Source: Halobiforma lacisalsi AJ5
Lineage (GTDB): Archaea; Halobacteriota; Halobacteria; Halobacteriales; Natrialbaceae
Length of the DNA stretch: 64,000 bases
Assembly (NCBI RefSeq): GCF_000226975.2
Contig: NZ_CP019285.1
Coordinates: 620,001 to 684,000 of the forward strand
Reading direction: 5' to 3'
Part shown: positions 16,809-34,181 of the stretch, in pieces
How positions within the stretch are numbered: the stretch's first letter is position 1
Layout: every line of letters begins with the position of its first letter
The notes under the pieces: generated by a model
What the model saw: the letters and a program-made list of their open reading frames with translations, nothing else
What the model was told of the DNA's origin: nothing
Database searches by the model: none
Made by a program: the position numbers and the translations under genes

Positions 16809-16828
16809 ATCGGTCGGCGAAACCGCCC

Positions 16829-17653: not shown

Positions 17654-18111
17654 TCAGGTACGTCCTCGCCGCGTTGCTCACCGTCGCCGTGATCGCCCTG
17701 TCGCTCCCGGCGATCCAGAGTGTCGCAGGCGTAGCGAGCGAACGAGGATTCGCCGGTGACGTCGCAGCGATCGACGACGCCGCAGTGTCGCTACTCGAGA
17801 GCGAAGAACCAACACCGGATGGCGTCCCTGCACCGCGTCGAACCGTGACGCTCTCGTTCCCGGCCGACTCGCTGACGACGGCTCCGATCGCGCACCTCCG
17901 GATCGAACGGATCGACGAGACCGGAAGCCTCGCGTCCTACGCCGCGGACGGCCGGGCCGAACGCCAACACCCGATCGACGCGCCGATCGTCCACGCCGAT
18001 CCGACCGCGAACGAAACAGTCGAACTGGGCGGCGTCGGGGAACGGCGCACGCTCGCACTCACGCTCCAGCGGGATGGCGACGGCGACCCGGTCGTCGTCG
18101 CCACCGACTGA
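17650..18111 (+). CDS. Membrane-anchored DUF7311-like protein of the pilus-like locus
   Basis: A 153-residue protein with one N-terminal hydrophobic helix (YVLAALLTVAVIALSLPAI, about 4-22) and a beta-rich outer domain ('RTVTLSFPADSLTTAPIAHLRIERI', 'RTLALTLQRDGDGDPVVVA'). The leader lacks a clear prepilin site, so it may be anchored as a bitopic protein. It overlaps the coiled-coil gene by 4 bp and is followed after 5 bp by the ATPase gene, so translation is probably coupled. The family name is from memory. Confidence 0.75.
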   Translation: MIRYVLAALLTVAVIALSLPAIQSVAGVASERGFAGDVAAIDDAAVSLLESEEPTPDGVPAPRRTVTLSFPADSLTTAPIAHLRIERIDETGSLASYAADGRAERQHPIDAPIVHADPTANETVELGGVGERRTLALTLQRDGDGDPVVVATD

Positions 18112-18116
18112 GGACG

Positions 18117-20078
18117 ATGTTCGGCGACGTTACCCGACGGGCTATCGGCCCGGCGCTCGAGCGGATCGGATTCGAGCTGTGGGTCACATCTCGCGACGAC
18201 GATACCCCGGGCCGGTGTTCGTGTGCGACCGCGTTCGACGAGGGTCGACTGATCGTCGATGCCGACGATTGTCCCGACGACGGCGACCTGCTCGAGGCCC
18301 CGACGTGCCGCCGGACCGTCGTCGAGGCGCTCGTCGAGCGGAGCGTCCGAGAGGTGATCGTCCGCTCGGAGGGACTCGAGTACCGGTACGACGACCGGGC
18401 CGTCCTCCTGTTCGTCGCCGCTGGACAGTTCCTCGAGTTGATCGGGGACGATCACGAACGACTGGCCGAGGCGGCGGCGACGGACCCCCTCGCGGCCGGC
18501 GAGGAGTTGCGGACGCGGGTCGACCGCGTCGCCGATTTCGGGACCGAAGCCGGTCTGATCGAAGCCGCAGGCGCCGTCGAAGACTACGCCGACCTCGCCC
18601 CCTCCGTCGGGGTCGAGATCGGCCACTACGTCGTCGATCGGTCGTTCGAGGGACGACTCCGGGACGTCCGGTCGCTCGAGACCGGCAGCGAGGCACGGAT
18701 CTACGATCGAGACGACGGGATCCCGCTGTACGCCCTGGACGTCGTCGACCTCTCGCTGTCGGCCGAGAACCGGACGCGATTGATCGACGGCTACGAAGCG
18801 ATCGCGACCGGCGCCGTCGAGGGGGAACGCGTCGCCTCGCGGGCGATCGAGCGAGTGAGCGACGGCGAGCAGGTGGAGCCGCTCGTGAGTTCGATCCTCG
18901 CGAAACACACCGCCGGCTACGGCGTGCTCGAGGACCTGTTCGCCGACCCGGCGGTGACCGACGTCTACGCGACCTCGCCCGTCTCGCGGAACCCGCTGCG
19001 GGTGGTCGCCGACGGGGAATCGATGGCGACGAACGTCTCCCTGACCGCGGCGGGCGCACGTGCGCTCGGCTCCCGGGTCCGGCGAACCAGTGGACGGGCG
19101 TTCTCCCGGGCGACGCCGACCGTCGACGCGACGGCCGCCCTCGAGAACGGAACGGAGGTTCGGATCGCGGGCGTCACCGATCCGGTCGCAGACGGGACAG
19201 CGTTCGCGTTCCGCGAGCAGGCCGACGACGCGTTCACCCTGCCCGCGCTGGTCGCGAACGGAACGGTTCCCGCGGCGGCCGCGGCCCTGCTCTCCGTCGC
19301 GATCGAACGCAACGCGGCAGTTCTCATCGCGGGCACGCGCGGAGCCGGGAAGACGACGCTGCTGGGAACGCTGCTGTACGAATTGGCACCGGAGACGCGG
19401 ACCGTCATCATCGAGGACACCCCCGAACTCCCCGTCGACCCCCTCCAGTCGGTCGGCCGCGACGTACAGGCGCTGCGTACCGGCGCAGGCGACGGACCCG
19501 AACTCTCGCCGGCAGAGGCACTCAGGACTGCGCTCCGACTCGGTGACGGCGCGCTCGTCGTGGGCGAGATTCGCGGCGAAGAAGCGGGCGTCCTCTACGA
19601 GGCGATGCGAGTCGGAGCGAACGCCAACGCCGTCCTCGGCACGATCCACGGCGACGGTGCCGACGACGTCTACGAACGGGTCGTCTCGGACCTGGGCGTC
19701 GAACCCTCGTCGTTCGGCGTGACTGACCTCGTGGTTACCGTCCAGACCTACCGGACCCCGACGGGGCGAACGCGGCGACTCGCCCGCATCGAGGAAGTGC
19801 TGGTGGACGCCGGCAAAGAAGGACGGCAGGTCGACGTCCGCTTCGAACCGCTCTACGCCCTCGAGGGGCAGGACGCTCGTCCGACCGGCCGGATCGACCG
19901 TGGAGAGAGCCGCCTGGTTGACAACCTCGCCGGTCCGGGGGAGACGTACGCGGACGTCCGGGCGGCGCTCGCGGCGCGCCGGGAAACCCTCGCCGGACTC
20001 GCCGCGGACGGACGCACGAGCCCGGGCGACGTCGCCGAAGCGTACGCCGATCGCAGCCACCGAAGGGGTGACGGGTGA
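18117..20078 (+). CDS. pilB: Type IV pilus-like assembly ATPase (PilB/TadA type)
   Basis: A 653-residue type II/IV secretion ATPase. The N-terminal half (1-270) includes a Cys-containing segment (CSCATAFD...CPDD...CRRT) and helical regions. The ATPase core has 'VEPLVSSILAKHTAGYGVLEDLFADPAVTDVY' near 260-290, Walker A GTRGAGKTT near 405-413, the Asp box 'VIIEDTPELPV', Walker B 'GALVVGEIRGEEAGVLYEAM' near 479 and the His box TIHGD near 511. It should power assembly of the pilus encoded by the locus. The C-terminal 60 residues are Arg/Ala-rich. It overlaps the next gene by 4 bp. The Cys set may bind zinc. Confidence 0.9.
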   Translation: MFGDVTRRAIGPALERIGFELWVTSRDDDTPGRCSCATAFDEGRLIVDADDCPDDGDLLEAPTCRRTVVEALVERSVREVIVRSEGLEYRYDDRAVLLFVAAGQFLELIGDDHERLAEAAATDPLAAGEELRTRVDRVADFGTEAGLIEAAGAVEDYADLAPSVGVEIGHYVVDRSFEGRLRDVRSLETGSEARIYDRDDGIPLYALDVVDLSLSAENRTRLIDGYEAIATGAVEGERVASRAIERVSDGEQVEPLVSSILAKHTAGYGVLEDLFADPAVTDVYATSPVSRNPLRVVADGESMATNVSLTAAGARALGSRVRRTSGRAFSRATPTVDATAALENGTEVRIAGVTDPVADGTAFAFREQADDAFTLPALVANGTVPAAAAALLSVAIERNAAVLIAGTRGAGKTTLLGTLLYELAPETRTVIIEDTPELPVDPLQSVGRDVQALRTGAGDGPELSPAEALRTALRLGDGALVVGEIRGEEAGVLYEAMRVGANANAVLGTIHGDGADDVYERVVSDLGVEPSSFGVTDLVVTVQTYRTPTGRTRRLARIEEVLVDAGKEGRQVDVRFEPLYALEGQDARPTGRIDRGESRLVDNLAGPGETYADVRAALAARRETLAGLAADGRTSPGDVAEAYADRSHRRGDG

Positions 20079-21817
20079 TCCGCATGGCGTCGTCGGAAGT
20101 GACTCACCCCCTCGTCACCCTCGCTCGAGCGTTCGCCGCGCTGTATCCGTGGCCGGTGGAGCCGGGCGACGAACTCGCCGAAGCGCTGTCGTTTCTCGGT
20201 CTCGAGCGCGATCTGCCGCCGAAAACCGTCGTCCGTGCGGGGTACGGTGCCGGGGTGGCATCGGCCCTTCCGGTCGCGTTCCTCACCGTAACGCCTGCTC
20301 CGCTCGTGTCGGTGCTTCCGTTCCTGGTGCTCGTTCCCCTGGCGACGATTCATGCGGTACACTCGTTGCCGGGATTGATCGCCGCATTCCAGCGAACCGA
20401 GGCACTGGGGGACGCGCCCAATCTCGTCGGCCGAACGGTGCTCAGGATGCAGGTCCAGCCGTCCCTCGAGAGCGCGGTCCGGTTCGCAGCCGAGACCGGA
20501 CGTGGGCCGCTGGCAGCGAGTCTCGCGGCCCACATCGATCGTTCGCTGGGGACGCCGGAGACCGGGCTTCTCTCGTTCGCCGACGAGTGGGCCGATCGGT
20601 TCCCCGCACTGCGACGATCGGCGCACCTGCTCGCGACGGCACAGGAAGCCCCGGAGGCGGAACGGGCCCGGACGCTCGACCGTGCGCTCGAGGCGATACT
20701 CGACGGGACCCGCGAGCGGATGGCCGAGTTCACTGCAGCGATCCGTGCCCCGACGAGTGCGCTGTTCGCGTTCGGGGTGATGCTTCCGCTCGCGCTCGTC
20801 GCGCTCGTCCCCGCCGTCCCGATGGTCGGGCTGCCGGTCAACATCTGGATGGTCGTGCTGCTTTACAACGTCGCTCTCCCGGCGGTGCTCGTCGCCGCGA
20901 GCCTCTGGTTGCTCGTCCGCCGACCCGTCGCGTTCCCGCCGCCATCGGTCGATCGCGACCACCCTGACCTCCCCGACGGGCTGTGGAGGCGATCCCTCGC
21001 AGGCGTCGCGGTCGGCGTCGCCGCCCACGCGGCGATCGGCCGGGTCGGATACCCCCACCTCGCGCCGGTCGCGGGCGTCGGACTCGGCCTCGGAACGGGA
21101 CTGCTCGCCATCTACGACCCGATTCTCTCGGTTCGCCACTCGGTCAAGGACGTCGAAGCCCACCTCACCGACGCACTCTACCTCGTCGGCCGGCAGGTCG
21201 CGGAGGGCGAATCCGTCGAGTCCGCAGTCGCACTCGCCGGCGATCGGGTCCCGGCCGAAACCGGCGAGGTGTTCCGGACCGCGGCGGCCCTCCAGCGTCG
21301 CCTGCACGTCGACGTCGAAGCTGCCTTCCTCGGTGAGTACGGGGCCCTCCGGACCGTGCCAAGCCCACGGGCCCGCAGCACGGCGGCCCTGCTAGCGATC
21401 GCCGCCGACGAAGGGCGGCCGGCGGGTCGGGCGATCGTTTCGATGGCCGACCACCTGGAAGACCTCGAGGAACTCGAGCGAAAGACCAAACGCGACCTCG
21501 AGCAGGTGACGGGAACGCTGGACAATACGGCTGCCTGCTTCGGTCCGCTCGTAGCGGGTGCGACGGTCGGGCTCGCGGATATGATGGCCGGCATCGACGT
21601 GCAGGGAACGACGGGGTCGACCGCGTTCCCGACGGACCCGCTCGCGCTCTCGATCGGGGCGTTCGTCCTCACGCTGTGTTTCGTGCTGATACCGCTGTCC
21701 TACGCCCTGCGGTACGGACTCGACGGGGCGCTGTTCGGCTACCATACTGGGCGGGCACTCCTGTCGGCGACGGTCGTGTACGTCGTCGCGATCGTCGCGA
21801 TCGATCTCCTGCTGTAG
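20075..21817 (+). CDS. pilC: Type IV pilus-like membrane platform protein (PilC/TadC type)
   Basis: A 580-residue integral membrane protein with two cytoplasmic T2SSF-like helical domains and about eight to nine hydrophobic segments (for example PFLVLVPLATIHAV near 90, ALVALVPAVPMVGLPVNIWMVVL near 245, ALSIGAFVLTLCFVLIPLSYA near 525). The cytoplasmic 'HSVKDVEAHLTDALYLVGRQVAEGESVESAVALAG' segment is a T2SSF hallmark. It forms the membrane base for the PilB ATPase encoded immediately upstream with a 4-bp overlap. A start at 20084 (MASSEV) is also possible. Confidence 0.88.
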   Translation: MIRMASSEVTHPLVTLARAFAALYPWPVEPGDELAEALSFLGLERDLPPKTVVRAGYGAGVASALPVAFLTVTPAPLVSVLPFLVLVPLATIHAVHSLPGLIAAFQRTEALGDAPNLVGRTVLRMQVQPSLESAVRFAAETGRGPLAASLAAHIDRSLGTPETGLLSFADEWADRFPALRRSAHLLATAQEAPEAERARTLDRALEAILDGTRERMAEFTAAIRAPTSALFAFGVMLPLALVALVPAVPMVGLPVNIWMVVLLYNVALPAVLVAASLWLLVRRPVAFPPPSVDRDHPDLPDGLWRRSLAGVAVGVAAHAAIGRVGYPHLAPVAGVGLGLGTGLLAIYDPILSVRHSVKDVEAHLTDALYLVGRQVAEGESVESAVALAGDRVPAETGEVFRTAAALQRRLHVDVEAAFLGEYGALRTVPSPRARSTAALLAIAADEGRPAGRAIVSMADHLEDLEELERKTKRDLEQVTGTLDNTAACFGPLVAGATVGLADMMAGIDVQGTTGSTAFPTDPLALSIGAFVLTLCFVLIPLSYALRYGLDGALFGYHTGRALLSATVVYVVAIVAIDLLL

Positions 21818-21826
21818 CCGCTGAGG

Positions 21827-21835
21827 TTTAAATAC
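21827..21835 (+). promoter_or_regulatory. TATA box inside the pilus-like locus
   Basis: TTTAAATAC lies 22-30 nt before the ATG at 21857. It is a strong match to a haloarchaeal TATA element at leaderless spacing. It suggests the pilin-like genes can be transcribed separately from the ATPase genes. Confidence 0.6.
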
Positions 21836-21856
21836 GAACACGCGGCCACGGCCGGC

Positions 21857-22762
21857 ATGGATCTGGAGACGCCCGCCGACGCGTGGTACGTCTGGCTCGC
21901 AGTCAGCCTCCTCACCCTCGCGACGGCCGGTATTGCACTCGGGCTGCCGACGGGACCGCCGCCGGACGCGACGGCGGCGGCAAACGCCATCGAACGAGCC
22001 GCCGGAACGGCGGATGCGAACGGATACGTGACAACGACCTACGAGCACGACGCCGACGCCATCAGGATCGACGGGAAGACGATCACCATGCGAAACGACC
22101 ACGGTACCGCCCACGCGAGCATCGCCTACGGACAGGTCGTCCCGGTGACCGGACACGAGCGACTCGAGAACGTTACATCCGGCACCCCGGTCACGGAGGA
22201 ATACGCGACAGAGATCGCTGCACCGAACGAAAGCGGCGTCGACGCGTTCCTGACCGACGTCAGGGCGGCCCACGAGGACAACGCGGGCGAGTGGCGACGC
22301 GCCGACGGTGAGTTGCGAACGAGGGCGGTCCGGACGATGCCCTCGCCCACTGTCTCGGTCACCGTCGAAACCGCGGACCTGCCGGGCCAGCAGACCGACG
22401 AACTCGAGTTCAGTTACGAGACCAACCGCGAGGTCCCGCTCCGACTCGGTGGACAGGGATCGCTCGGCGGCGACGTCGAGACATACGAAATCCCCGACTC
22501 CCGTTCCGGGAGCGTGGTGCTCGACCACACCGATATCGGCGACCGGAACACGCTCCAGTTCCCCCTCACCGTTCGGGTCGGGACGAGCGGCGACACTCTC
22601 TGCGACGCGACCGTCGAGATTCCGCAGGCAGGGGAACGAGTCGACGTCTGTGACCACGGCGAGGGAACGCTCGGGACCGACGTCCCTGTGGAAGACCTCG
22701 GCTACGTCGACCGAACGTCGTCCATTCCGGAGGCCTACCATGTCACGCTCGTCAGCACGTAG
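21857..22762 (+). CDS. Membrane-anchored protein of the pilus-like locus (DUF7283-like)
   Basis: A 301-residue protein. One N-terminal transmembrane segment (WYVWLAVSLLTLATAGIALGL, about 11-31) is followed by a large outer domain rich in beta strands. It includes 'AANAIERAAGTADANGYVTTTYEHDADAIRIDGKTI' and two cysteines near the C-terminus ('DTLCDATVEI', 'RVDVCDHGEG') that could form a disulfide. It starts its own transcription unit (TATA at 21827). Its end overlaps the next start by 23 bp in another frame. A minor-pilin or assembly role is inferred from context. Confidence 0.75.
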   Translation: MDLETPADAWYVWLAVSLLTLATAGIALGLPTGPPPDATAAANAIERAAGTADANGYVTTTYEHDADAIRIDGKTITMRNDHGTAHASIAYGQVVPVTGHERLENVTSGTPVTEEYATEIAAPNESGVDAFLTDVRAAHEDNAGEWRRADGELRTRAVRTMPSPTVSVTVETADLPGQQTDELEFSYETNREVPLRLGGQGSLGGDVETYEIPDSRSGSVVLDHTDIGDRNTLQFPLTVRVGTSGDTLCDATVEIPQAGERVDVCDHGEGTLGTDVPVEDLGYVDRTSSIPEAYHVTLVST

Positions 22763-23216
22763 GGGTCGGGGTCAGACGGAGCCGCTGGCGGCGCTGGTCG
22801 CCGTCGCGACGATCGGTCTCGCCGTCGGGTTGTACGGCGGTTACCTCACCGGTGTCCTCGGGGAGACGACCGATCGAACGCCAGAGTCGGTCGCGATCGA
22901 CCGCGTCTGGGACGATGTCTCCGAAAACGGCGTCTTCACGGCAATCGGCGGGAACGACGGCGCGATCAGGAACCGGGTTCGGATCGACTCTCTCCCGGAA
23001 GGGAAGACGGTCCACGTCACCATCACGACCGTCGACGACGGTGAAAAACACGTGATCGACCACGCCCGGTTCCACGCCGACGGAACCGTCCGCGATCCCA
23101 CTTTTGTCGGGGACCCGCCGGCCGACACCGGTGTCGCGACTCGGCCGGTTCCGGTCGAACTCGAGCCGGGAGACGTCCGCGGCGGGACGCTTCGGGTGGA
23201 GGTGTGGTCCCAATGA
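22740..23216 (+). CDS. Pilin-like protein with class III signal (DUF7285-like)
   Basis: A 158-residue protein starting MSRSSARRGRGQTEPLAALV. The RGRGQTEPL segment directly before a 20-residue hydrophobic helix (ALVAVATIGLAVGLYGGYL) is the form of an archaeal prepilin (class III) signal, probably cut after the Gly before QTEPL. The remaining 125 residues are an outer beta-rich domain. The start at 22740 lies inside the preceding gene, and its stop overlaps the next start (ATGA at 23213). It is probably a minor pilin. Confidence 0.78.
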   Translation: MSRSSARRGRGQTEPLAALVAVATIGLAVGLYGGYLTGVLGETTDRTPESVAIDRVWDDVSENGVFTAIGGNDGAIRNRVRIDSLPEGKTVHVTITTVDDGEKHVIDHARFHADGTVRDPTFVGDPPADTGVATRPVPVELEPGDVRGGTLRVEVWSQ

Positions 23217-24364
23217 GGGGGAGACACTCGAGTAGCGGAGCGAGGGACAACGGCTCGAACCGGTCGATCCGAAACGGCACGGACGAGCGCGCCGTCAGCA
23301 CCGTCCTCGACGTCGCACTCGCCTTGCTGCTGATCAGCGCGAGCGTACTGGTCCTGGGTCTCTACCTCGAGGACGGAACCGAGGCCGAACGGTTCGACGG
23401 GACCAGTGCGGAACGGACCACCGAGACGCTCGCCGCGACGACGCTCTCGATCCAGTACGACGTCGGCGGCGTCGAATCGAGCGACGTCTACGTCCCGCCG
23501 GAGCTGACGCCCCCGGGCGCGTACGAACGCGCCGAGTACGGTCCGGCGACCGGGTTGCTCGCCGATGCGGCGGTCACGAACGCACGGATCGGCGACCACG
23601 AGCTGCTGGCATACGGCGACGAGTACGAGGACGCAGTCGACGGATCGATCGGGAGCGCGCTCGTCGGTGCGGACCGCGATCGCGATCACCACCGTCACCG
23701 GGTCTACGCCGTCGCTGTCTGGGAGCCCTACGAGAACGCCTCGATCCGCGGGACAGCGACGGCCGGCGAACGACCGCCTGTCGACGAGGACGTCGGCAGC
23801 GCGACGATCGCTGTCTCGAGCGGCCTCCCGCCACTCGAGGAGGCGGCGATCAGGGACGCCTACGACCGCGGCGACGATCGAGAAGAGGGGATCGCGCTGG
23901 TCGCCGAACTGCTCGCCGAGCGCCTCGTCGAGGGGTATTTCCCGCCCGAACAGTCCCAGCATGCTCTCGAGAGTCAGGGACTGGACCGGTCGCTGAAGGT
24001 CTACCACTACCGGGAGACGGCGGCGGCCGTCGGCGTCGAGTTCGACGACCCGGACGACGAAGGGGGACCACTCTCCCGGAGCACCGCTAACGCGACGGCC
24101 GCAAACGAGCGGCTCGTCTACGGCGAGCGGGGGCCCGAGACGATACTCGACGACCTGCAGGAATGGTTCGGCGACGAGGACGAACCGAACGGACTCGCGG
24201 CCGTGATCGCCGACGACCTTCGAAACGACGCCCTCGCGCCCGAACTCAAGGAGATCGACCGGAAGTACGACGACGAGACGGCCGACGAACGCGTCGAAGA
24301 CCTGCTCGTCGAGTCGATCGCCCTCGAGGAGGCGACGATCACCGTCCAGACCTGGGAACCGTAA
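23213..24364 (+). CDS. Pilin-like protein (DUF7284-like)
   Basis: A 383-residue protein. After 27 basic residues, 'DERAVSTVLDVALALLLISASVLVLGLYL' (split here by position about 25-53) has the RAVSxV start typical of haloarchaeal pilin signal/hydrophobic domains. The outer part (about 60-383) is acidic and mostly helical, including 'PPLEEAAIRDAYDRGDDREEG'. It is much larger than a major pilin. It overlaps the preceding gene by 4 bp and is followed after 2 bp by the largest gene of the locus. A minor pilin or tip protein is the likely role. Confidence 0.78.
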   Translation: MRGRHSSSGARDNGSNRSIRNGTDERAVSTVLDVALALLLISASVLVLGLYLEDGTEAERFDGTSAERTTETLAATTLSIQYDVGGVESSDVYVPPELTPPGAYERAEYGPATGLLADAAVTNARIGDHELLAYGDEYEDAVDGSIGSALVGADRDRDHHRHRVYAVAVWEPYENASIRGTATAGERPPVDEDVGSATIAVSSGLPPLEEAAIRDAYDRGDDREEGIALVAELLAERLVEGYFPPEQSQHALESQGLDRSLKVYHYRETAAAVGVEFDDPDDEGGPLSRSTANATAANERLVYGERGPETILDDLQEWFGDEDEPNGLAAVIADDLRNDALAPELKEIDRKYDDETADERVEDLLVESIALEEATITVQTWEP

Positions 24365-24366
24365 CG

Positions 24367-27270
24367 ATGGCACGCCAGCAACCGCACACGATTAGAGTTT
24401 CGCTCGACGACCGAGCGCGGGTGCCGTTCGCGATTATCGGCGTCCTGCTATTGTTGAGTAGTGTTACCGTCATCGGCATCCTGGAATCGCGAGACGAAGC
24501 CGAAGTCGACGCGAATCCGATGCTCGCGCTCGATCGAACCGAACCGCTCGTCCAGTCCGAACTGCGGAGGGCGGTCCTGCACGCGACCGACGATGCGGCC
24601 CGGGCGCCGCTCGGAACGACCGCCGACACGCCGGTCGGTAACGCGATAGCTGATCCCGATGGTGACGAGTTCGAACGCTATCTGAAGCTGCTGATCTACG
24701 CCGAAGCCGAGCGAACGCTGCCGGCGGCCGGGCAGGAACTGCGCGGCTCGGCCGAGACGACCGTCGACCTCGAGCCCGTCGACTGGAACGATCGAGCGAG
24801 CGTCGAAGCGGCGATCGATCGCGTCGAACTCGAGTACCGGAACGGGGACGGTGACGGAGACGGTCCAACGACCGGACTCCTCAGAACGACGATCGAAGGC
24901 GTCTCGATCCGCCTCGAGAGCGACGACGGGAGTACCCGGGTTCGCGACCGACGGCCGATAACGGTCACCGTCGGGACGATGCTGTTCGAACTCCACGAGC
25001 GAACGGAACGGTTCGAACGGGGCCTCAACGACGGGTTCCGGGAAGCGGACGGCTACGAGGGATTCAGCCGCAAGCTCGCAGCCCGGCTGTATCCGCTCGT
25101 CTGGGGCAAAGCCTACTACGACCGCCTCGACAACGACCCGAGCGAACGTGCGTTCGAAAACGTGACGCCGAACGAACACACCGAGGTGCTGGCGAACGAC
25201 GCGATATTTGCACTCCAGAAAGACGCGTTCGGTGACGGGGCCGTCGACCCGTACGAGGATCGCGTGATGAGAGGTGCGTCAGCATGTCTCGCGGTCGACC
25301 TCGGCGAAGAGGTCGTTGACGCCGATCTCGAGGACATGGAAACGCTCTGTGAGAGCGATTACGTGTTCGGCGACGTCGAGGGCGAACTCGAGGATCCACC
25401 GACGATTCAGGAGCTATTGACGCTCGTCCTCGAGGACTATGTACGCGGCGAGATGGAAGTGGAGTTAGAGATTCATCCGTTCGCGGAGGCCGCGTTCGTC
25501 GAGACAACTGGCTTTACGATGGACGGACTAGAAGACGAGTTTTACGAAGATTTGAACGAGAGTGATCGCTTCGACGAGACGTATTTAGAGTCCCATTATC
25601 AAGAAGAATTGATAAATGCAGAAGAAGTAACTGGACTCAAAAACGTAGTAGGGAAATTAGAGTCAGAAGTAAATAAAATAGAAAGTACCGACAGTGTTAA
25701 AGAATCAGTTTCTAGCATATATAAGGCAGAAATTTCTCTTGAGGAGAATATAATCCGTGAAAACACTCTCCCGGATGCTAATATTATGGAGGGCCCTACT
25801 GGAAGCGAAAATCATACCTATCAAGGAAGGGAGTATCTCATCTTCCCTGGAGACGGTGCTGATGTGAGGTTTTCGGAGCGAAAAGAGGATACAGCCGACT
25901 TAGAGAGGAACTTGGTAGATATTAATATCACATTTGAAAATGTGGTTCAAGAACAAGTCCACTGGGAAGGACATGGGAACGCGTCGAATGTGACGATCGA
26001 TTCAGATAGAAAGAGCATCACATATACCGCGGAATTCACCATCGCAGGAGAATTTGCGCCGGATGCGACCGTCGATAGATCGAGAGGAATGGAAACCGCA
26101 CTCGAACGAGGAGGGGCAGCCGGACCGATCGGAGTAGACAATTTCGACGGTGCGGCGATGGAATCTGTCGAGGAGCTATTCGGAACGCGAAGCGAGGATA
26201 CGCTCGAGAGTCGCATCGAGTCGCAGTCGAGTACGATCCTCAATAGAGACGATTTCGAATCGGCGATCGACTACGATACGGAAGGTGAACTCGACCTACA
26301 AGAGGACGATATCGATACCTGGCTCCAGAACGAGTTATCGGAAACGCATCTAACCGTCGTTACGGAGGTCGAACCGCTGGAGGTCGATCTGTTCGACATG
26401 GTGACCGGCGAGAGTCCGATCTACGAGTTCGAATCGAAGGTCGCCGAACTCGAAGACGACGTCGTCTACGATGGGATCGACGGTTCGTACGAGAACGCAC
26501 CGGATATGGCCCGGGCAGAGGTTCGCCAGCGATACTTCGAGAACATCTACGCATGGATCGAAACGATGGGCCAGATTCACGATGATTCGAACGACGCAGC
26601 CGACGAGATGATCGGCGAACTACTGGGTGGAGCAAACGACATGCTCGAGGATAGCGTCGGGTTCTTCCAGGGGGTGTTGGCCAATCCGGAAGAGGCACTC
26701 GGCGACGACCCCCACGATGAATGGGCTCTGGCCGGTGGGTCGCCGTTACACGAAGACGTTCGACTCGTTGTCGACGGATCGCCTACCTATCTTCCGCTCG
26801 AAACGGTCGAACGGGGGGAAGTACCGGCAGTACGGCCGGACGGTAACGGGCCGTTAAACCCGGCACCAGCTGCGCATGCACCGCTGGGAGCAAAATACGA
26901 AAACGAGGTGGGATTTCCCGGTGCCCCGGTCGTTCCATGGCCGCAGTTTTTCTTCCTGCAACTGGATGCCTGGCAAGTAGACGTCAAGGGCGAATATGCT
27001 CGATTCGAAGTGAGAGCGACGAGCGGTGACGGGCCGCGAACTGATTCGACGACCTACGTCAGAGAGGACAAAGCGGTCTATATCGATGCAACCAATGCGG
27101 ACGGCAAAGTCAAAGCGGGTTCAGTGGACCCAATAGCGTTCGAAAACTCCGTTCCAGTCGTTACGTTCGTTCCGAGCCCACAGCTCTTGCCTCGAGGCAG
27201 TCCAGGTGTCGGTAATACTGGACAGGAGACCAATGAATCCGATAATTGGACAGAAATAGGCGATGTTTAG
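24367..27270 (+). CDS. Very large membrane-anchored protein of the pilus-like locus (DUF7286-like)
   Basis: A 967-residue protein. One N-terminal transmembrane segment (VPFAIIGVLLLLSSVTVIGIL, about 19-39) is followed by an acidic outer region of about 920 residues with coiled-coil-prone stretches (about 390-470) and a conserved-looking C-terminal domain ('GAPVVPWPQFFFLQLDAWQV', about 855-874). No catalytic motif is recognised. Odd feature: about 25500-26100 is AT-rich with AGA, TTA and ATA codons, unlike both flanks (line 25621-25680 has only 19 G/C in 60). This suggests replacement of the central part. Its stop overlaps by 4 bp the stop of the convergent lipoprotein gene. Confidence 0.8.
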   Translation: MARQQPHTIRVSLDDRARVPFAIIGVLLLLSSVTVIGILESRDEAEVDANPMLALDRTEPLVQSELRRAVLHATDDAARAPLGTTADTPVGNAIADPDGDEFERYLKLLIYAEAERTLPAAGQELRGSAETTVDLEPVDWNDRASVEAAIDRVELEYRNGDGDGDGPTTGLLRTTIEGVSIRLESDDGSTRVRDRRPITVTVGTMLFELHERTERFERGLNDGFREADGYEGFSRKLAARLYPLVWGKAYYDRLDNDPSERAFENVTPNEHTEVLANDAIFALQKDAFGDGAVDPYEDRVMRGASACLAVDLGEEVVDADLEDMETLCESDYVFGDVEGELEDPPTIQELLTLVLEDYVRGEMEVELEIHPFAEAAFVETTGFTMDGLEDEFYEDLNESDRFDETYLESHYQEELINAEEVTGLKNVVGKLESEVNKIESTDSVKESVSSIYKAEISLEENIIRENTLPDANIMEGPTGSENHTYQGREYLIFPGDGADVRFSERKEDTADLERNLVDINITFENVVQEQVHWEGHGNASNVTIDSDRKSITYTAEFTIAGEFAPDATVDRSRGMETALERGGAAGPIGVDNFDGAAMESVEELFGTRSEDTLESRIESQSSTILNRDDFESAIDYDTEGELDLQEDDIDTWLQNELSETHLTVVTEVEPLEVDLFDMVTGESPIYEFESKVAELEDDVVYDGIDGSYENAPDMARAEVRQRYFENIYAWIETMGQIHDDSNDAADEMIGELLGGANDMLEDSVGFFQGVLANPEEALGDDPHDEWALAGGSPLHEDVRLVVDGSPTYLPLETVERGEVPAVRPDGNGPLNPAPAAHAPLGAKYENEVGFPGAPVVPWPQFFFLQLDAWQVDVKGEYARFEVRATSGDGPRTDSTTYVREDKAVYIDATNADGKVKAGSVDPIAFENSVPVVTFVPSPQLLPRGSPGVGNTGQETNESDNWTEIGDV

Positions 27271-28469
27271 CTAATTTTGAATAGTGTATTCTCGTGGCTA
27301 GTTAGATAAACTGAATTATTCGCGACAATTGGTGATGCTATCGCCGGTTCACCCAGATCGTATTCCCAACCCAAATCTCCAGATTCAATATCGATTGCAT
27401 AAACAGCATAGTATGAACAAATGTATATCATGCTATTTGCAACTACTGGTTTCGGATCTGGGGAGAACTGAATTTTGAGTTCCCAACTTAGATCACCAGA
27501 CTGAGTTTCGAGTGCGATGACTCGATCACTATCCCCAAAGAACACCGTCCCGTTCGCAACGGACGGACTCGAGGCGACTTCCGTCGTCGCTTCGTACTCC
27601 CATTCGAGGTCGCCCGAATCGGTATCGACGGCGTAGAAGTTCCCCTCGACATCGCCGATGTAGACCAATCCGTCCGCGACGGCGGGGCTAATGTGGTGGA
27701 GAATCTCGCCTGCTTCGTTTTCGAACTCCCACTCGCGTTCGCCGGTCTCGAGGTCGATCGCACCGAGCCGGTCCTCGTAGGCGACGTACGCGGTCCCGTC
27801 GCTGATCGCCGGTGCTTCTGAAACACCCATCTCGTACGGATCGGGGAGGAGATCGATCGGCTCCTCGAGGGTTCCAGTCTCGAGATCGAACCGCCAGATG
27901 TGCTCGTCGTCGGTAACGACTCCCGTCGAGTCGTCGAGGACGAGCGGATAGTACGGGTTGGAGTTCGTCCCGTCTTCGCGCCATCGCACGTCACCTGACT
28001 CGCCGTCGATCGACAGCAGTTCGCGGTTGCCGGAGAAGTAGAAGTTGCCATCGGCGTACGCGGGTGTTGGGCGCAACGAGGTTTCCAGGTCGACCGACCA
28101 CTCCTCGTCGCCGGTTTCGGGGTCGATCGCGTAGAACCGTTCGTCGTGCGAGCCGACGTACAGCGTTCCGTCGATGAGAAGCGGCGTAGCGGCGAACGAG
28201 TCGTCGGCTTCAAACTCCCAGTCGACGTCGACACCGTCGTCTCCCGACCCATCGGGGCCCCGAGCATCGGGTTGGTGACCGGTGTTCGCCAGGTCGACGC
28301 CGTACATGCGCCACTCGGCACTGGCCGGGCGGTCGCGGAGGAGCGAGTCGGACGGGGCACCATCTTCGTTCTCGTTCAGGTAACTTGCACATCCTGCGAG
28401 TGCGGGGACGGACGCCGTCGTAGCACACGTCCGCAGCCATTGACGGCGAGTTCTGTTGCTTCGTTGCAT
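27267..28469 (-). CDS. PQQ-type beta-propeller lipoprotein
   Basis: A 400-residue protein. It opens with a Tat-type lipoprotein signal: twin Arg in RTRRQWLRT, then a hydrophobic stretch ending in the lipobox LAGC (Cys about 27). The remainder contains repeated propeller blades of the form 'GxVYVGSxDxxxYAIDxETGDxxWxxxL' at about 40-residue intervals, as in PQQ-like repeat and BamB proteins. No catalytic dehydrogenase residues are evident, so it is probably an extracytoplasmic binding or assembly protein. The ATG at 28469 was chosen because the signal starts there and a TATA-like palindrome lies 31-46 bp upstream. The gene's 3' 200 bp are AT-rich. Confidence 0.85.
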   Translation of the reverse strand: MQRSNRTRRQWLRTCATTASVPALAGCASYLNENEDGAPSDSLLRDRPASAEWRMYGVDLANTGHQPDARGPDGSGDDGVDVDWEFEADDSFAATPLLIDGTLYVGSHDERFYAIDPETGDEEWSVDLETSLRPTPAYADGNFYFSGNRELLSIDGESGDVRWREDGTNSNPYYPLVLDDSTGVVTDDEHIWRFDLETGTLEEPIDLLPDPYEMGVSEAPAISDGTAYVAYEDRLGAIDLETGEREWEFENEAGEILHHISPAVADGLVYIGDVEGNFYAVDTDSGDLEWEYEATTEVASSPSVANGTVFFGDSDRVIALETQSGDLSWELKIQFSPDPKPVVANSMIYICSYYAVYAIDIESGDLGWEYDLGEPAIASPIVANNSVYLTSHENTLFKIS

Positions 28470-28499
28470 ACAGTCGTCACTGTGTGAAGACAACCGTTC

Positions 28500-28515
28500 G
28501 TAATACATTTATTAC
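28500..28515 (-). promoter_or_regulatory. AT-rich palindrome at the lipoprotein promoter
   Basis: GTAATA (28500-28505) pairs with TATTAC (28510-28515) across CATT. It lies 31-46 nt before the lipoprotein start at 28469, which places it at or just beyond the TATA position. It could be the TATA box, an operator, or both. Confidence 0.45.
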
Positions 28516-28665
28516 TTTTGAACCGCTGATATATCCTCCATCAACCTAGTTTTAACTGTTTTAGAGCAAATAATCTGTGCGCCAACACTGGATTCGAGCT
28601 CATTGCAACGAACCAAATGTCACCACTCGAAGGAGAATCGGCCACCAGAGACCGACTGGCGTCGA

Positions 28666-30309
28666 TCATTCTCGAGCAGTCGCAACGATTGCGAGGTCGG
28701 AGTCGAGTTCAGTGATGCGCTCGGCGGTAGGTGTAGAGACGATGCGTGACACCGTGGAACGATCGGTACTTGCGCCAACGAGAACGATGTCGTACTGCGT
28801 CGCGCGGTCGGCGACGAACGCCTCCGGTGTATCACCGACGACACGGCTTTCGAAATCGCAGTCCACGCTGTCGGCGTTCCCGTCGAACGGTTCGAGAAGT
28901 CGTGTGAGCATTCGTTCGGCCCGTCGGCGGTCCCGGTCTCGAGTGAGGCAGTGACAGACACTGACGGTTCCGTCACCCACCAGCCGCGTCGCAAAGTCGA
29001 CCATCGCATGCGCGATATCGCTCTCGCGGCGAACCGGGACCAGTGCTCGCTGCCAGTCGTCCCGGCCCTTCTTCGAGCGGTGAACCAGAACGTCGAGCCC
29101 CCCGTGCAGGAGGTCACGAACGAACCCTGACGGCCCCTCTCGGTCGTGGCCCTCACGTGATTCGTAGGGGGCGACGATCAGATCGCACTCCGTTTTCCGG
29201 GCAGCCGCGAGTACGGTCGTCGGATCGTCCTCGTTGCCCGCGACGACGGCGACTTGACAGGGTACGTTCGTCTCCGCTTCGATTTCGCGAGCATATTCCT
29301 CGATCCGTTCGGCGGTTTCGGTTCCGACTCGGGTTTCGGCGCGTGTTCGGCCGTCACCCCCATCTGGTGTGGGGTCCCCTTGGTCTGCATCCGGACCCGA
29401 TCGCGCCGAACTGTGAGTTGGGTGGCCTCCCGCGGCCTGCTCTTCACGGTCATCAGTTTCCTCCTCACTGCCGGTATCGTCCAGCCCGTTCGGTGACTGG
29501 CCGTCCAAGACATCGTCGACCGACTCTCGATCGACGACCTCGAGGAGCACCACCTTGCCGGCCTCGTGTGCGGCCGCGAGGCGAGCGCCGAGCATCGCAG
29601 TCGCCCCGGGACGGTCACCTCGAATCGGGACGAGCACTGCGTCGTCGGCCGTCGTGCTTGCATAGAGGAGATGAGCGCGTCGCTCGAAGAACCACCGCCG
29701 CCATCCGACGAACGCGGCAGCGACCAGCGACGTCGCGACGAAGACGCTGAACACGTAGGCGATCGCGGCGCCCGTTCGGCCGGGGAACACGCCGATGACG
29801 GTACCGTCGGCATTCGTTCCGAGCGGTTCGGTGAGGAGCACGAGCAATGCAGTCGAGAACGATTGTGCTTCCTCCAGATCGAGAAGCCACGTGAACGAAC
29901 CGGTGAGGAAGATAGCGAAGGCCGCGGCGCCGGCGTGGGCCTCGAACGTTCCCGGAGAACTGCCGTACCCATATCGTCCGACGACCTCGAGTGCGATCCA
30001 GCCACAGACTGCGCCCAACGTCAATCCTCCGACGAACCGCCGCGGGGAGGCGTACTCGCTCTCCGGTTCGGAAAAGAGCGTGTACGCTCCGGACGCAAGC
30101 GGCGGAAACAGCAAGAACGGAAGGGCAGGAACGGCGTTCGACAGTGCCGTAACGAAACCGAGCAGCGCCGGGACGAAAAGCAGCGCCGAGAGGCGGATCA
30201 GATTTCGCGTGTTCTCGAGCCACGCCCGCAGTTCGCGTCGTTCGCGCCGTTCGATTCGACGGAGCCGAGACCCGATCGCACGGACGCGCGACCGGAGACC
30301 CTCGAGCAT
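28666..30309 (-). CDS. HPP membrane domain fused to universal stress protein domains
   Basis: A 547-residue protein. The N-terminal third carries an HPP-family domain (about 35-210) with four hydrophobic segments and 'PALPFLLFPPLASGAYTLFSEPESEYASPRRFVGG'-like sequence. The rest is cytoplasmic and resembles two universal stress protein (UspA) domains (about 220-390 and 400-547) with 'LVPVRRESDIAHAMVDFA' and the ending 'YDIVLVGASTDRSTVSRI'. HPP proteins include nitrite transporters in chloroplasts and cyanobacteria. The fusion suggests transport or sensing regulated by nucleotide binding. Substrate unknown. The linker (about 275-330) is acidic low complexity. Confidence 0.8.
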   Translation of the reverse strand: MLEGLRSRVRAIGSRLRRIERRERRELRAWLENTRNLIRLSALLFVPALLGFVTALSNAVPALPFLLFPPLASGAYTLFSEPESEYASPRRFVGGLTLGAVCGWIALEVVGRYGYGSSPGTFEAHAGAAAFAIFLTGSFTWLLDLEEAQSFSTALLVLLTEPLGTNADGTVIGVFPGRTGAAIAYVFSVFVATSLVAAAFVGWRRWFFERRAHLLYASTTADDAVLVPIRGDRPGATAMLGARLAAAHEAGKVVLLEVVDRESVDDVLDGQSPNGLDDTGSEEETDDREEQAAGGHPTHSSARSGPDADQGDPTPDGGDGRTRAETRVGTETAERIEEYAREIEAETNVPCQVAVVAGNEDDPTTVLAAARKTECDLIVAPYESREGHDREGPSGFVRDLLHGGLDVLVHRSKKGRDDWQRALVPVRRESDIAHAMVDFATRLVGDGTVSVCHCLTRDRDRRRAERMLTRLLEPFDGNADSVDCDFESRVVGDTPEAFVADRATQYDIVLVGASTDRSTVSRIVSTPTAERITELDSDLAIVATARE

Positions 30310-30476
30310 ACGTTTCGTTACGGCTGGATCGGAGAAGGGCGTTACGCTGGTCGCAGAACGTCAAATTTCGAACGACCGGGAGTCGGGCGCGTTCCATCTA
30401 ACGGCTTACTGGCACCCGTGACGACCCCACGGCCTTCGTTCGAGCGGGCATCGGAAGGGGAGTCCCGAACCGAAAT

Positions 30477-30932
30477 CTATGCTCCGTCCCGTTGCTGGAT
30501 CCCGGTCCACGACTCGATCCGGAACCGGTAACCCCGAACGCCGCGCATCGGGTTCGCGGACGCGAATATATTGGGGTGCCAGGCGTTTTGCATCGCGTCC
30601 CGCAGGGTGTCCCATTCGTCGTCCGGGACGGCGACGATCCGACCGGTCAGGGATATACTCTGCCAGTCGTAGACGGATTCGGCGCGGTAGACGAGAAACC
30701 GCCCGCGCCCGACGTCGTCAGAAAGGTCCTCTTTGCGACTTTCGGTTCCAAACAGCAGATAGACGAAGTACAGCATCGACTCCCCGTCGTACCCAAACGA
30801 CATCGGGACGACGTACGGGACGCCCTCGGTCGGCAGCGCGAGGATGCCGATTCCTTCCTCCTCCAGAAGCGTCCGCATCTGTTCCTCGCTCATCGACGCG
30901 GTGTTCGACTCCTCGAGCAGGTCATTGAGCAT
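30477..30932 (-). CDS. Pyridoxamine 5'-phosphate oxidase-like FMN-binding protein
   Basis: A 151-residue split-barrel protein: 'MSEEQMRTLLEEEGIGILALPTEG', 'PYVVPMSFGYDGESMLYFVY', 'RFLVYRAESVYDWQSISLTGRI', 'HPNIFASANPMRGVRGYRFRI' in order. This is the haloarchaeal PPOX-like family that binds FMN or a related cofactor. The true substrate is unknown. The start at 30932 (MLNDLLEE) was chosen because a TATA-like CATTATTAG lies 24 nt upstream on the minus strand. An ATG at 30941 is the alternative. It is divergent from the MinD-like gene at 31084. Confidence 0.82.
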   Translation of the reverse strand: MLNDLLEESNTASMSEEQMRTLLEEEGIGILALPTEGVPYVVPMSFGYDGESMLYFVYLLFGTESRKEDLSDDVGRGRFLVYRAESVYDWQSISLTGRIVAVPDDEWDTLRDAMQNAWHPNIFASANPMRGVRGYRFRIESWTGIQQRDGA

Positions 30933-31083
30933 AGTTACCAATACACGTTCTATTCTAATAATGGTGCCGTCGGTCGAAAACCACGGCCGTCACGCGCTGG
31001 CCGCCGCGCTGAGAGGGGACAGTGATACAGCGATGCCGGCCGACGGCTACAGGTTCAAATGGGAAGGCGCGACCAATCGCGGC

Positions 31084-32457
31084 ATGTTCGCTATCGCCGG
31101 CGCGAAAGGCGGTTGTGGAAAGACGACGGTGACGATCGGGTTGGCCGACGCGTTCTCGAGAGCGGGCACGCCCGCCGTGGCCGTCGACGCCGACCGACAG
31201 TTGCCCAACCTGCACGTCGTCGCAGGGGCGGATCGGAACCCCACGCTCGTCGATGTCGCGTCCGACGAGGAACTCGAGGCGGTCGTCCAGGGTCGGCAGG
31301 GACCCGATGGCGACGGTGTCGGTGCCGGCGTCGGGATCGTCCCCGCACCGGAGCCGTCGGAGCGGGCCGAAGTCGATTTCGAACTCGCCATCGATCGCCT
31401 CGAGCGAACCGGCGCCGAGGTACTGGTCGACTGTCCGTCCGGGGCCGGCCCCGACGCGGTCGAACCACTGGAGTACGCCGACGCGGTCGTCGTAGTGACG
31501 ACCGCCACCGACCGCGGCCTGGACGCGGCCGCCACGACGGTCGAAATCGCGCGCCGACTCGATACCCCCATCGCCGGTGCGATCGTCACCCTGACCGATG
31601 GAGTGACCGATACCCTCGAGTCGACCCTCGGTATCCCGGTTCTCGGCACCGTCCCGGACTGCGAGTCACCGCTGACGGAAGCCGCCGCGCGAACGGCGTT
31701 CGACGACCTCGCGGCTGCAGTGGCCCGCCGGGCGACCGCGACCCCGTCCCCCGGCAGCGATCGGGAAGGGTCGGCGAAGTCCCTGCTCTCGACCGGGAAC
31801 CGCGCCGTCGATCGGACACTCGGCGGCGTACCGCCCGGAACGGTCGTTGCCGTGACGGCTCATCCGGCCAGTCAGTCGGAACGGCTCCTCTACGAGGCGA
31901 CCGCGACCAGAGGAACGCTGTACCTGACGACCGATCGCTCGAGGAACGACGTCGAGCGGGCGATAGAGTCGACGACGGTCCGGACCGGCAACCCGACGGT
32001 ACGGCGCCTCGACCGGGACGAGCCAGTCGAACACGCGCGCCGACTGATCGGGGAGTTACCGGAGGGTGCGAACCTCGTGATCGACTCGGTGGCTCCGCTC
32101 GAGCGAACGGCCGGCGAGGCGTACCCGGACGTGCTGAACGCCGTCGCCGATCGGATGTCCGAGACGGGTGGAATCGCCATACTGCACTGTCTCCGGGGCG
32201 CGGAGCCGAACCGACGAACGACGACGCTGCACCTCGCCGATGCGGTGTTCGACGTCCGGACGATCAGCGCGGGCGTCGGAACGGGCGTCGAGCACCGCAT
32301 CGCGGTACCGAAATTTCGGCCCGACGGCCGTCGATCGCCGATCGTCGAACTCGACCGGCGTGAGAAAGGCGAGCGGAATGGTCTCGGTTCGGAAGGTGAC
32401 CCCACCGCGTTCGAGTTCGCCGCGGAACGGGACGACGGGCAGGGAAAAGAGGAGTAG
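31084..32457 (+). CDS. MinD/ParA-like ATPase fused to a RecA-like domain
   Basis: A 457-residue protein. The N-terminal MinD-type ATPase has the deviant Walker A KGGCGKTT at residues 8-15, 'VLVDCPSGAGPDAVEPLEYADAVVVVTTA' as Walker B region and 'VLGTVPDC' near 195. The second half (about 240-430) has the layout of RecA/KaiC-like haloarchaeal proteins ('TGNRAVDRTLGGVPPGTVVAVTA', 'LVIDSVAPLERTAG', 'ILHCLRG') but its Walker A is degenerate. MinD-family proteins place cellular structures at the membrane. The role here is unknown. The ATG at 31084 begins the ATPase; upstream open sequence has no domain. Confidence 0.78.
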   Translation: MFAIAGAKGGCGKTTVTIGLADAFSRAGTPAVAVDADRQLPNLHVVAGADRNPTLVDVASDEELEAVVQGRQGPDGDGVGAGVGIVPAPEPSERAEVDFELAIDRLERTGAEVLVDCPSGAGPDAVEPLEYADAVVVVTTATDRGLDAAATTVEIARRLDTPIAGAIVTLTDGVTDTLESTLGIPVLGTVPDCESPLTEAAARTAFDDLAAAVARRATATPSPGSDREGSAKSLLSTGNRAVDRTLGGVPPGTVVAVTAHPASQSERLLYEATATRGTLYLTTDRSRNDVERAIESTTVRTGNPTVRRLDRDEPVEHARRLIGELPEGANLVIDSVAPLERTAGEAYPDVLNAVADRMSETGGIAILHCLRGAEPNRRTTTLHLADAVFDVRTISAGVGTGVEHRIAVPKFRPDGRRSPIVELDRREKGERNGLGSEGDPTAFEFAAERDDGQGKEE

Positions 32458-32467
32458 CGGTACGGAC

Positions 32468-33142
32468 TTACTCCTCCGTGGCTGTCTCGAGCGTGCTCGC
32501 GATCGACGCGAAGGAGTCGACCGACGGACAGGTCGGATACGCGTCCCGGACCGGCCTGTCGCGTTCGGCGGCGACGGCGATCGTCGGCCGCTCCGCGAGG
32601 GTTGCGACTCCAGTGCCGAGTTTCGACTCGAGTCGGTCTGCGATCCCCGCGATGCCGTCGTCGGACGCCCGGTTGATGACGATCGTTCCGACCGGCGTTC
32701 CGAGGTCCCGAGCGAGCGCTCGTGTACGGACCGCATCCACGATAGCGGCCCGTTCCGGGATCGTTACGAGTACAGCCACGGTCGCCGCGTGTAGCGGATA
32801 GCCGACGTCGCGGGCGAGCCCCGCGGGACAGTCGACGACGACACGTCCCCGCTCGCGTTCCAGTCGGTGCAGGACCCGCGGGAGTTCGGAGAGCAGCGAC
32901 GCCCGGACGCCAGCGAGCGAGCGACCGCTCGAGAGTACGGGGACGGCACCGTGCTCGACGACCGCGTCGTCGGGGTCGGCTCGACCGGCGAGCACGTCGT
33001 GCAGCGTCGGACCCTCGAAAGAGGGGAGATCGCCCGTCGCGAGGTCACCGTCGACGACGACCGCCCCGAGTTCCCGGGCGAGGTTCAACGCGACGGTCGT
33101 CTTGCCGACGCCCCCTTTGCCACCTCCGACTGCCACGATCAT
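32468..33142 (-). CDS. MinD/ParA-like ATPase
   Basis: A 224-residue compact MinD-type ATPase. The deviant Walker A GKGGVGKTT lies at residues 8-16, 'VVVDGDLATGDLPSFEG' at about 29-45 is switch I, and 'RVVVDCPAGLARDVGYPLHAATVAVLVTIPERAA' around 110-143 is switch II. A C-terminal amphipathic helix is not obvious. It is convergent with the MinD-RecA fusion gene, 10 bp apart, so both sets end together. It overlaps the upstream gene by 4 bp (ATGA), so it is translated from a shared message with the DUF7857-like gene. Confidence 0.85.
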   Translation of the reverse strand: MIVAVGGGKGGVGKTTVALNLARELGAVVVDGDLATGDLPSFEGPTLHDVLAGRADPDDAVVEHGAVPVLSSGRSLAGVRASLLSELPRVLHRLERERGRVVVDCPAGLARDVGYPLHAATVAVLVTIPERAAIVDAVRTRALARDLGTPVGTIVINRASDDGIAGIADRLESKLGTGVATLAERPTIAVAAERDRPVRDAYPTCPSVDSFASIASTLETATEE

Positions 33143-33522
33143 CCGTCGATCGACGTCGACGGCGGAACGCCGGCCGGCGAGCCGGACTCGAGAGAATCGA
33201 GGATGGTGTCCGGCGAGGACAGCCCGTCTGCCCCGGAAATGCGGGTCGAAGCGGTGACCTCGACCGGCTTCGGCCGGGGATCGGCGGGAGTCGCGAACCC
33301 AAGTCCGCGGGTTCGCCCCGGGTCGACGACGCCCCGCCACGCGCCGTTGGTCCACTCGACTGCAGCCCCGCGCCTGGCACTCGGGGTCCAGACCGGCGCG
33401 TCGAACCGTGGCTCGAGCCGCACGCGCTGAGGCGTCGCCCGGCCGTTCGTGACAGTCACGCTGACGAACGTGACGCCATGGCGGGGGGTAGTGTTCGTCT
33501 CGAGATCGATCGAATCGGCCAT
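33139..33522 (-). CDS. DUF7857-like small protein, partner of the MinD-like ATPase
   Basis: A 127-residue protein of beta-strand character: 'TPRHGVTFVSVTVTNGRATPQRVRLEPRFDAPVWTPSARRGAAVEW' with a 'VDPGRTRGLGFATPADP' turn, like an immunoglobulin-type or CARDB-type domain, then an acidic C-terminus. It has no signal peptide and so is probably cytoplasmic. The start at 33522 precedes MADSIDLE. Its stop overlaps the start of the MinD-like gene, so the two are likely to work together. The domain name is tentative. Confidence 0.7.
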   Translation of the reverse strand: MADSIDLETNTTPRHGVTFVSVTVTNGRATPQRVRLEPRFDAPVWTPSARRGAAVEWTNGAWRGVVDPGRTRGLGFATPADPRPKPVEVTASTRISGADGLSSPDTILDSLESGSPAGVPPSTSIDG

Positions 33523-33620
33523 GGGGACGGTGGCCGCTCGATCCGATTTAAACTCTCGGACGGCGAGACCAAACTGATTGGAACCGCAACTCATACGTTG
33601 GGACCGAATATCGAGGGTCG

Positions 33621-33746
33621 ATGAACGCTCGGTGCCCGGAATGTGACGGCCTGGGAGAGTTACTCGAGAAAAGATCGCTCGAGGGCGGCGTGAGAGGCAT
33701 CTTCGAGTGCTCGAACTGCGGGACCGAGTGGTCGACCGCTATCTGA
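33621..33746 (+). CDS. Small zinc-ribbon protein, 41 residues
   Basis: A 41-codon frame encodes a protein starting MNARCPECDGLGELLEKRSL and ending FECSNCGTEWSTAI. Two CxxC pairs (Cys5/Cys8 and Cys30/Cys33), separated by 21 residues, match a rubredoxin-like zinc ribbon. It starts 99 bp upstream of, and divergent from, the DUF7857-like gene. Its length is below usual gene-finder thresholds, and its codon use is typical of the host. Function unknown. Confidence 0.75.
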   Translation: MNARCPECDGLGELLEKRSLEGGVRGIFECSNCGTEWSTAI

Positions 33747-34168: not shown

Positions 34169-34173
34169 CGGGC

Positions 34174-34181
34174 TTTTATTA
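34174..34181 (+). promoter_or_regulatory. Probable TATA box for the HalOD1 gene
   Basis: TTTTATTA ends 23 nt before the ATG at 34205, the usual leaderless spacing. Confidence 0.5.

Follow-up and report, generated by a model that had tools for sequence, protein, structure and literature searches.

The locus described here lies in a 64-kb stretch of Halobiforma lacisalsi AJ5 DNA (hereafter the window), in which a gene coding for a 967-residue protein has an AT-rich centre. The question is whether this centre has been replaced by transfer and, if so, how far the replaced unit extends. A previous sequence-only reading had proposed replacement of the gene centre. The present analysis indicates, with a probability of about 0.72, that the AT-rich stretch makes up half of a variable module of two genes, exchanged between related haloarchaea by recombination.

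The 967-residue protein matches DUF7286 (Pfam PF23957) with 388.2 bits (cut-off 27) in three stretches, the best of which covers residues 14-383, and a membrane helix is predicted at residues 19-41 from a structure model. Its gene is the last of an operon that also encodes a TadA/VirB11-like secretion ATPase (18117-20078, + strand; Pfam T2SSE, 70.1 bits, cut-off 24.9), a tentative TadC-like membrane platform protein (20075-21817, + strand), named from its operon position and a weak T2SSF match (17.5 bits, under the cut-off of 25.2), and the DUF7283, DUF7285 and DUF7284 proteins (21857-24364, + strand; 163, 109 and 269 bits), whose genes form a conserved flank. Against the TadA family model of NCBIfam (TIGR03819), the ATPase scored 132.7 bits, under the cut-off of 373. 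A MinD/ParA-like ATPase with a DUF7125 domain (30844-32457, + strand; CbiA 49 bits, DUF7125 141 bits) is probably part of the same system.

The reading frame of the DUF7286 gene (24367-27267, + strand, 967 codons) is open from end to end, as the sequence-only reading had claimed, and sliding GC and GC3 plots agree with it on a drop in the gene centre. The trough at 25492-26046 (+ strand, residues 376-560, hereafter the block; GC 0.420, GC3 0.422) lies between the GC-richer N part (24367-25491, + strand, residues 1-375; GC 0.634, GC3 0.760) and the remainder of the gene (26047-27267; GC 0.568, GC3 0.612). A recount of 25621-25680 gave exactly the 19 G+C of 60 nucleotides reported. The AGA, TTA and ATA codons said to be used in this region all occur, but they are few (3, 3 and 4, respectively, of the 200 codons at 25500-26100). 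The 50-codon GC3 minimum of the gene, 0.22, was reached in none of 5000 codon shuffles (lowest shuffle 0.32), and no lower minimum was present among the 25 largest internal drops listed from 175 AJ5 genes of at least 300 residues, taken from crude gene calls over 464 kb of the genome. The lowest 200-bp GC window of the whole 64 kb begins at 25551 and the second distinct minimum at 27251. This second trough (27200-27500), which is absent from the sequence-only reading, belongs with the dip at 25492-26046.

The second trough leads into a convergent gene (27267-28508, - strand) that encodes a 413-residue PQQ-type beta-propeller protein (Pfam PQQ_2, 159.5 bits). With the PQQ-dependent dehydrogenase model TIGR03075 it scored 83.8 bits, under the cut-off of 480; the neighbour is a PQQ-repeat beta-propeller only. 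Its N-terminus, read by eye, contains a twin-arginine (RR) stretch and LAGC, as in most relatives, and such a start with its lipobox-like LAGC is typical of Tat lipoproteins. The GC3 of the PQQ gene falls from 75-85% to 28-40% across the last 120 codons; in the ranking of internal drops, three genes placed above it have doubtful long starts. The PQQ genes mirror the DUF7286 genes, with GC3 higher at the 5' end and lower at the 3' end. The AJ5 genome contains several further PQQ-repeat beta-propeller genes (27 matches listed), none of which exceeds 33% identity to the neighbour gene across the greater part of its length. As a source of the exchanged tract these genes are implausible by identity (best 33%).

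The AJ5 locus was compared with that of its closest congener, Halobiforma haloterrestris DSM 13078 (G001; G numbers designate genomes). The two aligned at 95-96% over 16369-34506, save two places. In the first, between borders at about 25492-25509 and 26028-26046, which are fixed to within about 20 bp, identity was 45-79%. The second is an AT-rich patch at 27217-27492 (no strand assigned; unaligned by blastn at 27220-27493; GC 0.38-0.42), which covers the 3' tip of the DUF7286 gene, the point where it meets the PQQ gene tail to tail, and the 3' part of that second gene. Protein identity was 97, 97, 94, 96 and 94% for the T2SSE, T2SSF, DUF7283, DUF7285 and DUF7284 proteins, and within DUF7286 it was 94% in the N part, 59% in the block and 95% in the C part (26047-27216, + strand), which is unreplaced in this comparison. 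The PQQ protein was 97% identical over residues 1-326 and 31% identical in its tail (residues 328-413), while the next two genes past it gave 95 and 96%. Two further observations concern the same alignment. A short length difference was seen at 24817-24870, in a Gly-Asn-Asp run (DUF7286 residues ~151-165), and at 34506-34715 the alignment breaks and restarts at 84% identity, which marks a further AT-rich divergent spot (GC 0.43).

Synonymous divergence (dS) between AJ5 and G001 was 0.09-0.18 in the flanks, saturated at residues 376-525 and 1.00 at residues 526-560; this distance-based estimate has no finite value where pS exceeds 0.75, and its 25-codon windows are small. Nonsynonymous change in the block was high too. 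Since the synonymous jump sits between sharp edges, DNA has been exchanged here, and the sequence did not merely change faster in place. Replacement by transfer, as claimed by the sequence-only reading, is thus well supported by saturated dS between sharp edges, by the 95-96% identity of the surrounding locus and by the conflicting trees described below. The gene centre given as the replaced unit has indeed been replaced, but the unit runs on into the convergent neighbour gene. As 1.2 kb of unreplaced C part separates the two AJ5 patches, they may stem from two separate events; matched selection acting on both the block and the lipoprotein tail fits the split arrangement as well.

The dip was then followed among relatives. 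A DUF7286 match was found in 71 of 125 genomes of the family. The comparisons used one genome per species and covered 74 genes, from 66 of these 71 genomes and from five genomes of other families; G010, G069, G070, G136 and G139 of the family, G028 and G035 of other families and two G023 gene fragments were left out. The same AT-rich block sits at the corresponding position of 23 genes in a clade. It is present in all four members of the window's genus that have the DUF7286 gene (GC3 0.38-0.54 at residues 376-475), in the clade genes of the Natrinema-type genus g9 (0.33-0.47), in most genes of genus g5 (0.36-0.54 where they belong to the clade) and in single genes of g18, g42 and g20; it is absent from the g5 genes G008a (0.85) and G130a (0.80). 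In a second DUF7286 group, in genus g6 (loci L131-L135 and L040), the AT-rich part lies some 800 codons from the start, within a stretch of which the AJ5 gene has a shorter version. The homologue of locus L119 (G052) was read as 1424 residues, about 400 above most.

Composition alone is therefore a poor mark of transfer, for an AT-rich block in the same place is carried by the congeners and, in other genera, by most relatives. According to the sequence-only reading, homologues with the same composition and a matching tree in all parts would have spoken against replacement; the composition is indeed shared by these congeners and other-genus relatives, but the trees of the parts do not match. 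A single insertion from one AT-rich donor, of which the composition would be the fingerprint, agrees with the GC3 drop and its sharp left edge and with the Lys, Asn and Ile content of the block (17.8% together, against 7.2% ahead of it). The presence of the block in 23 clade genes, including all four of the genus, and the failure to find a closer block relative in 392 genomes of the order largely refute it as a single event, so that this explanation is very unlikely. Variability and GC3 per 40 columns were inversely correlated in the 23 genes (Spearman -0.55, p 0.006) and weakly in 13 evenly GC-rich homologues (-0.28, p 0.18). The AT bias may come from loss of GC in a fast-turnover region or from a pool of AT-rich alleles.

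To see whether replacement recurs, pairs of close relatives (N-part identity above 0.84) were compared over aligned codons only. A replaced stretch, scored as 60 codons below 0.65 identity, was present in 14 of the 36 pairs, and it depends on the neighbour gene: it was found in 13 of 17 pairs whose members both have a PQQ neighbour of the AJ5 type (100 bits or more), against 1 of 19 without. Among disjoint pairs, the counts were 8 of 10 and 1 of 11 (Fisher p 0.0019). The GC3 of the 13 replaced stretches ranged from 0.28 to 0.52, and homologues with the same domains and without the PQQ neighbour are evenly conserved. The PQQ-neighbour label and the aligned-codon version were chosen after the result of a first test had been seen. 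In that test, which counted gaps and used GC3 as the label, 13 of the 36 pairs were swapped and had low GC3 (disjoint Fisher p 0.086); it was replaced since a C-terminal length difference of G013 accounted for three of the five other swaps.

Four PQQ-neighbour pairs had no replaced stretch. In two of them, G094/G097 and G019/G083, the mosaic is reversed, the tract being more alike than the flank, which means exchange as well. In the second (loci L036 and L120), the last third of DUF7286 is 99-100% identical and the remainder 93-98%, which suggests that the tract was exchanged very recently or is shared. The other two, G127/G124 and G128/G129, are plain exceptions to the replacement pattern.

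The borders of the replaced stretches are sharp and recurrent. Border positions were computed in 9 of the 14 swapped pairs. In all seven pairs examined from the window's genus and g9, five of them disjoint, the left border lies at AJ5 residue 377-393; two g6 pairs have it at residue 851. In G108/G097, for example, identity is 97-100% upstream and 37-88% in the tract. The divergent tract crosses the end of the DUF7286 gene into the PQQ gene in G108/G097, G098/G094, G109/G110, G131/G134 and G132/G133, with identity back about 0.8-1.1 kb farther on; in the first three of these pairs the C part is replaced. Within the PQQ gene, three pairs have their border at residues 73-79 (protein length about 407), G132/G133 at residue 133 and AJ5/G001 at residue 327. 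A search for repeats at the block borders gave only weak two-copy matches.

Phylogenies of the gene centre and ends were also proposed by the sequence-only reading. They were built from 25 chosen clade genes (19 for the PQQ tree), and the block and PQQ trees concur with one another and clash with that of the upstream part. The upstream part placed G108 with G097 and G109 with G110, whereas the PQQ tree grouped G094 with G097 (100), G108 with G098 (100) and G106 with G110 (86-95). The block trees, weakly resolved overall, recovered G094 with G097 (100) and gave weak support to a grouping of G108 with G098. AU tests were carried out on groups named after quick trees had been seen. The N part rejected {G094,G097} (p 6e-4) and {G108,G098} (1e-6), and {G108,G097} was rejected by the block (1.3e-4), the C part (8e-8) and the PQQ gene (1.2e-5). 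The pair {G109,G110} was rejected by the PQQ gene (0.003) but not by the block (0.14). The C part has its own history, as it mildly rejects {G106,G110} (0.017) and {G108,G098} (0.046).

The block and the lipoprotein gene share a history. Their distances were correlated after those of the N part and DUF7284 had been removed, which controls in part for relatedness (r 0.46, permutation p 2e-4). This test covered 18 of the 23 genomes; G103, G111 and G128 were omitted as the fetched stretch cut the PQQ gene, G122 for having no PQQ match and G125 for having no DUF7284 match.

Another possibility is that the tract was hypermutated in place, for instance by a diversity-generating retroelement. High divergence limited to a short tract would be expected from such a process, but synonymous change is saturated too, and in G094/G097 the tract is 97-99% identical while the upstream parts differ by about 10%, which needs transfer. 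Hypermutation is thus extremely unlikely. The source of the AJ5 block was then searched for. Antigenic variation of the pilE/pilS type draws on silent versions of the variable block stored at other genomic sites. In the AJ5 genome the block matched itself alone at E 0.1 or better, as did the full protein, and with no silent block copy elsewhere in this genome such a silent-cassette system was rejected. At E 0.01 or better, the block matched in 17 of 392 genomes of the order, and as the best match outside the genus was just 31-33% identical, no donor was found. One scan of viral contigs detected no encoded relative, and a viral origin was rejected on this basis. With neither a donor allele nor a silent copy found for the AJ5 block, the donor is hypothetical.

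Exchange of a two-gene module could proceed as follows. The DUF7286 gene, whose product is predicted to be membrane-anchored and is encoded with the TadA-like ATPase, and the beta-propeller lipoprotein gene meet tail to tail, with conserved 5' parts (membrane or signal part, promoter and start codon) and variable, AT-rich 3' parts. Homologous recombination with related haloarchaeal DNA, for which the conserved 5' parts of the two genes are the probable anchors, could exchange both distal protein parts at once and leave the promoters and reading-frame starts intact. Because the genes converge, a donor fragment would not have to bring its own promoter or start codon, and the module is read here as a promoterless cassette, both ends of which a single event could renew. 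In AJ5/G001 the pieces renewed are DUF7286 residues 376-560 and lipoprotein residues ~328-413.

Both proteins are likely to be outside the cell and touching each other, with DUF7286 probably displayed by the pilus-type machine. Neither structure nor location gave support for contact between DUF7286 and the lipoprotein. The full-length DUF7286 model was poor (mean pLDDT 56), that of the block alone reached 65, its beta-rich half being better, and neither had a PDB structure match at E 0.001 or better. SecB-like matches were weak and not meaningful, and a profile search of PDB sequences found nothing. Our best guess, judging from the pattern, is that diversity is kept because the module serves as a recognition surface towards viruses, predators, mates or self. 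Evasion of viruses or predators by way of an exposed domain, the suggestion of the sequence-only reading, may be involved.

How far the two genes are functionally paired is a separate matter. Ordinary recombination may hit the locus repeatedly, with weakly constrained distal parts and with tracts shared by adjacency and not by functional pairing, and this is a real possibility, though short of probable. Linkage alone predicts common trees for neighbouring tracts, the high nonsynonymous change of the DUF7286 block agrees with weak constraint, and the even conservation of homologues lacking the PQQ neighbour could reflect a different constraint. Plain linkage of neighbours does not, however, predict a C part that is 95% identical between two differing patches, as in AJ5/G001, and the left borders fall within 17 residues in seven of seven pairs. 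It is also conceivable, if rather doubtful, that the distal halves encoded by this convergent cassette, those of a pilus-displayed protein and its lipoprotein partner, are matched alleles which move together between species through recombination anchored at the two 5' ends, giving a serotype-like self/non-self or virus-receptor polymorphism.

A polymorphic toxin-immunity pair, in which the pilus-type machine would deliver the variable part as a toxic effector and the lipoprotein would be the cognate protection, is very unlikely. A conserved delivery part, a displaced distal part and a co-varying neighbour do resemble such systems, and the authors of the VARTIG report (PMC8416519) list this as one hypothesis for their module. 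In the DUF7286 locus, however, the variants are homologous from end to end and share a C-terminal region that is conserved (residues 851-900, 60-86% identical), the variable part has no recognisable toxin domain (Pfam gives DUF7286 alone, with no structure or profile match), and the neighbour is a 413-residue convergent beta-propeller instead of a small downstream gene on the same strand.

Exchange of variable parts is already known for surface-type proteins, but at this locus a pair of convergent genes appears to vary jointly, with edges recurring at the same residues across genera. If the proteins pair, the locus would offer a system for studying matched-partner co-evolution and what haloarchaeal viruses, predators and mates recognise. 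An AT-rich dip in a GC-rich archaeal gene can also mark a long-lived, repeatedly exchanged region and not one foreign insertion.

A search of the open-licence literature gave no paper on DUF7286, on a hypervariable haloarchaeal Tad pilus or on a hypervariable Natrinema pilus; only the following analogues emerged. As in archaeal type IV pilus loci (PMC4858521), a pair of a secretion ATPase and a (here tentative) TadC-like protein occurs with large accessory proteins and a MinD-like ATPase; DUF7286, the PQQ lipoprotein neighbour and distal-part exchange are not described in the portion of that account considered. The cell-wall genomic island of Haloquadratum walsbyi (PMC4535781) is likewise a variable, surface-associated haloarchaeal locus, but there, in the sections cited, whole-gene content varies, whereas at the DUF7286/PQQ locus alleles are replaced in frame inside two conserved genes.

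The Rhs genes of Enterobacteriaceae (PMC2935791), in the part of the account used here, also combine a conserved core and a variable tip with separate histories and displacement by homologous recombination. Displaced Rhs tips are kept as arrays of dissociated tips, whereas the DUF7286 variants are alleles of one homologous region, no silent copy of the block was found and two genes are affected. VARTIG (PMC8416519) is, according to the portion cited, a hypervariable Ig-domain module of Thermococcales with variable neighbour genes and a function given as unknown. In both systems, recombination between species diversifies the distal part of a large archaeal protein of surface type. Unlike VARTIG, DUF7286 has no immunoglobulin domain by Pfam scan, its variable part lies in the middle of the gene or distally and the C-terminal region is conserved, and it has one fixed convergent lipoprotein partner in place of the variable downstream genes. 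The VARTIG authors, in the same portion, found no close counterpart in other archaea, but their search was based on Ig/CARDB domains and would therefore miss the DUF7286 locus. Neither the VARTIG nor the Rhs account, as far as cited, shows two convergent genes as one exchanged unit. Within these limits, VARTIG is the nearest archaeal analogue of the DUF7286/PQQ locus, and Rhs displacement the nearest bacterial one.
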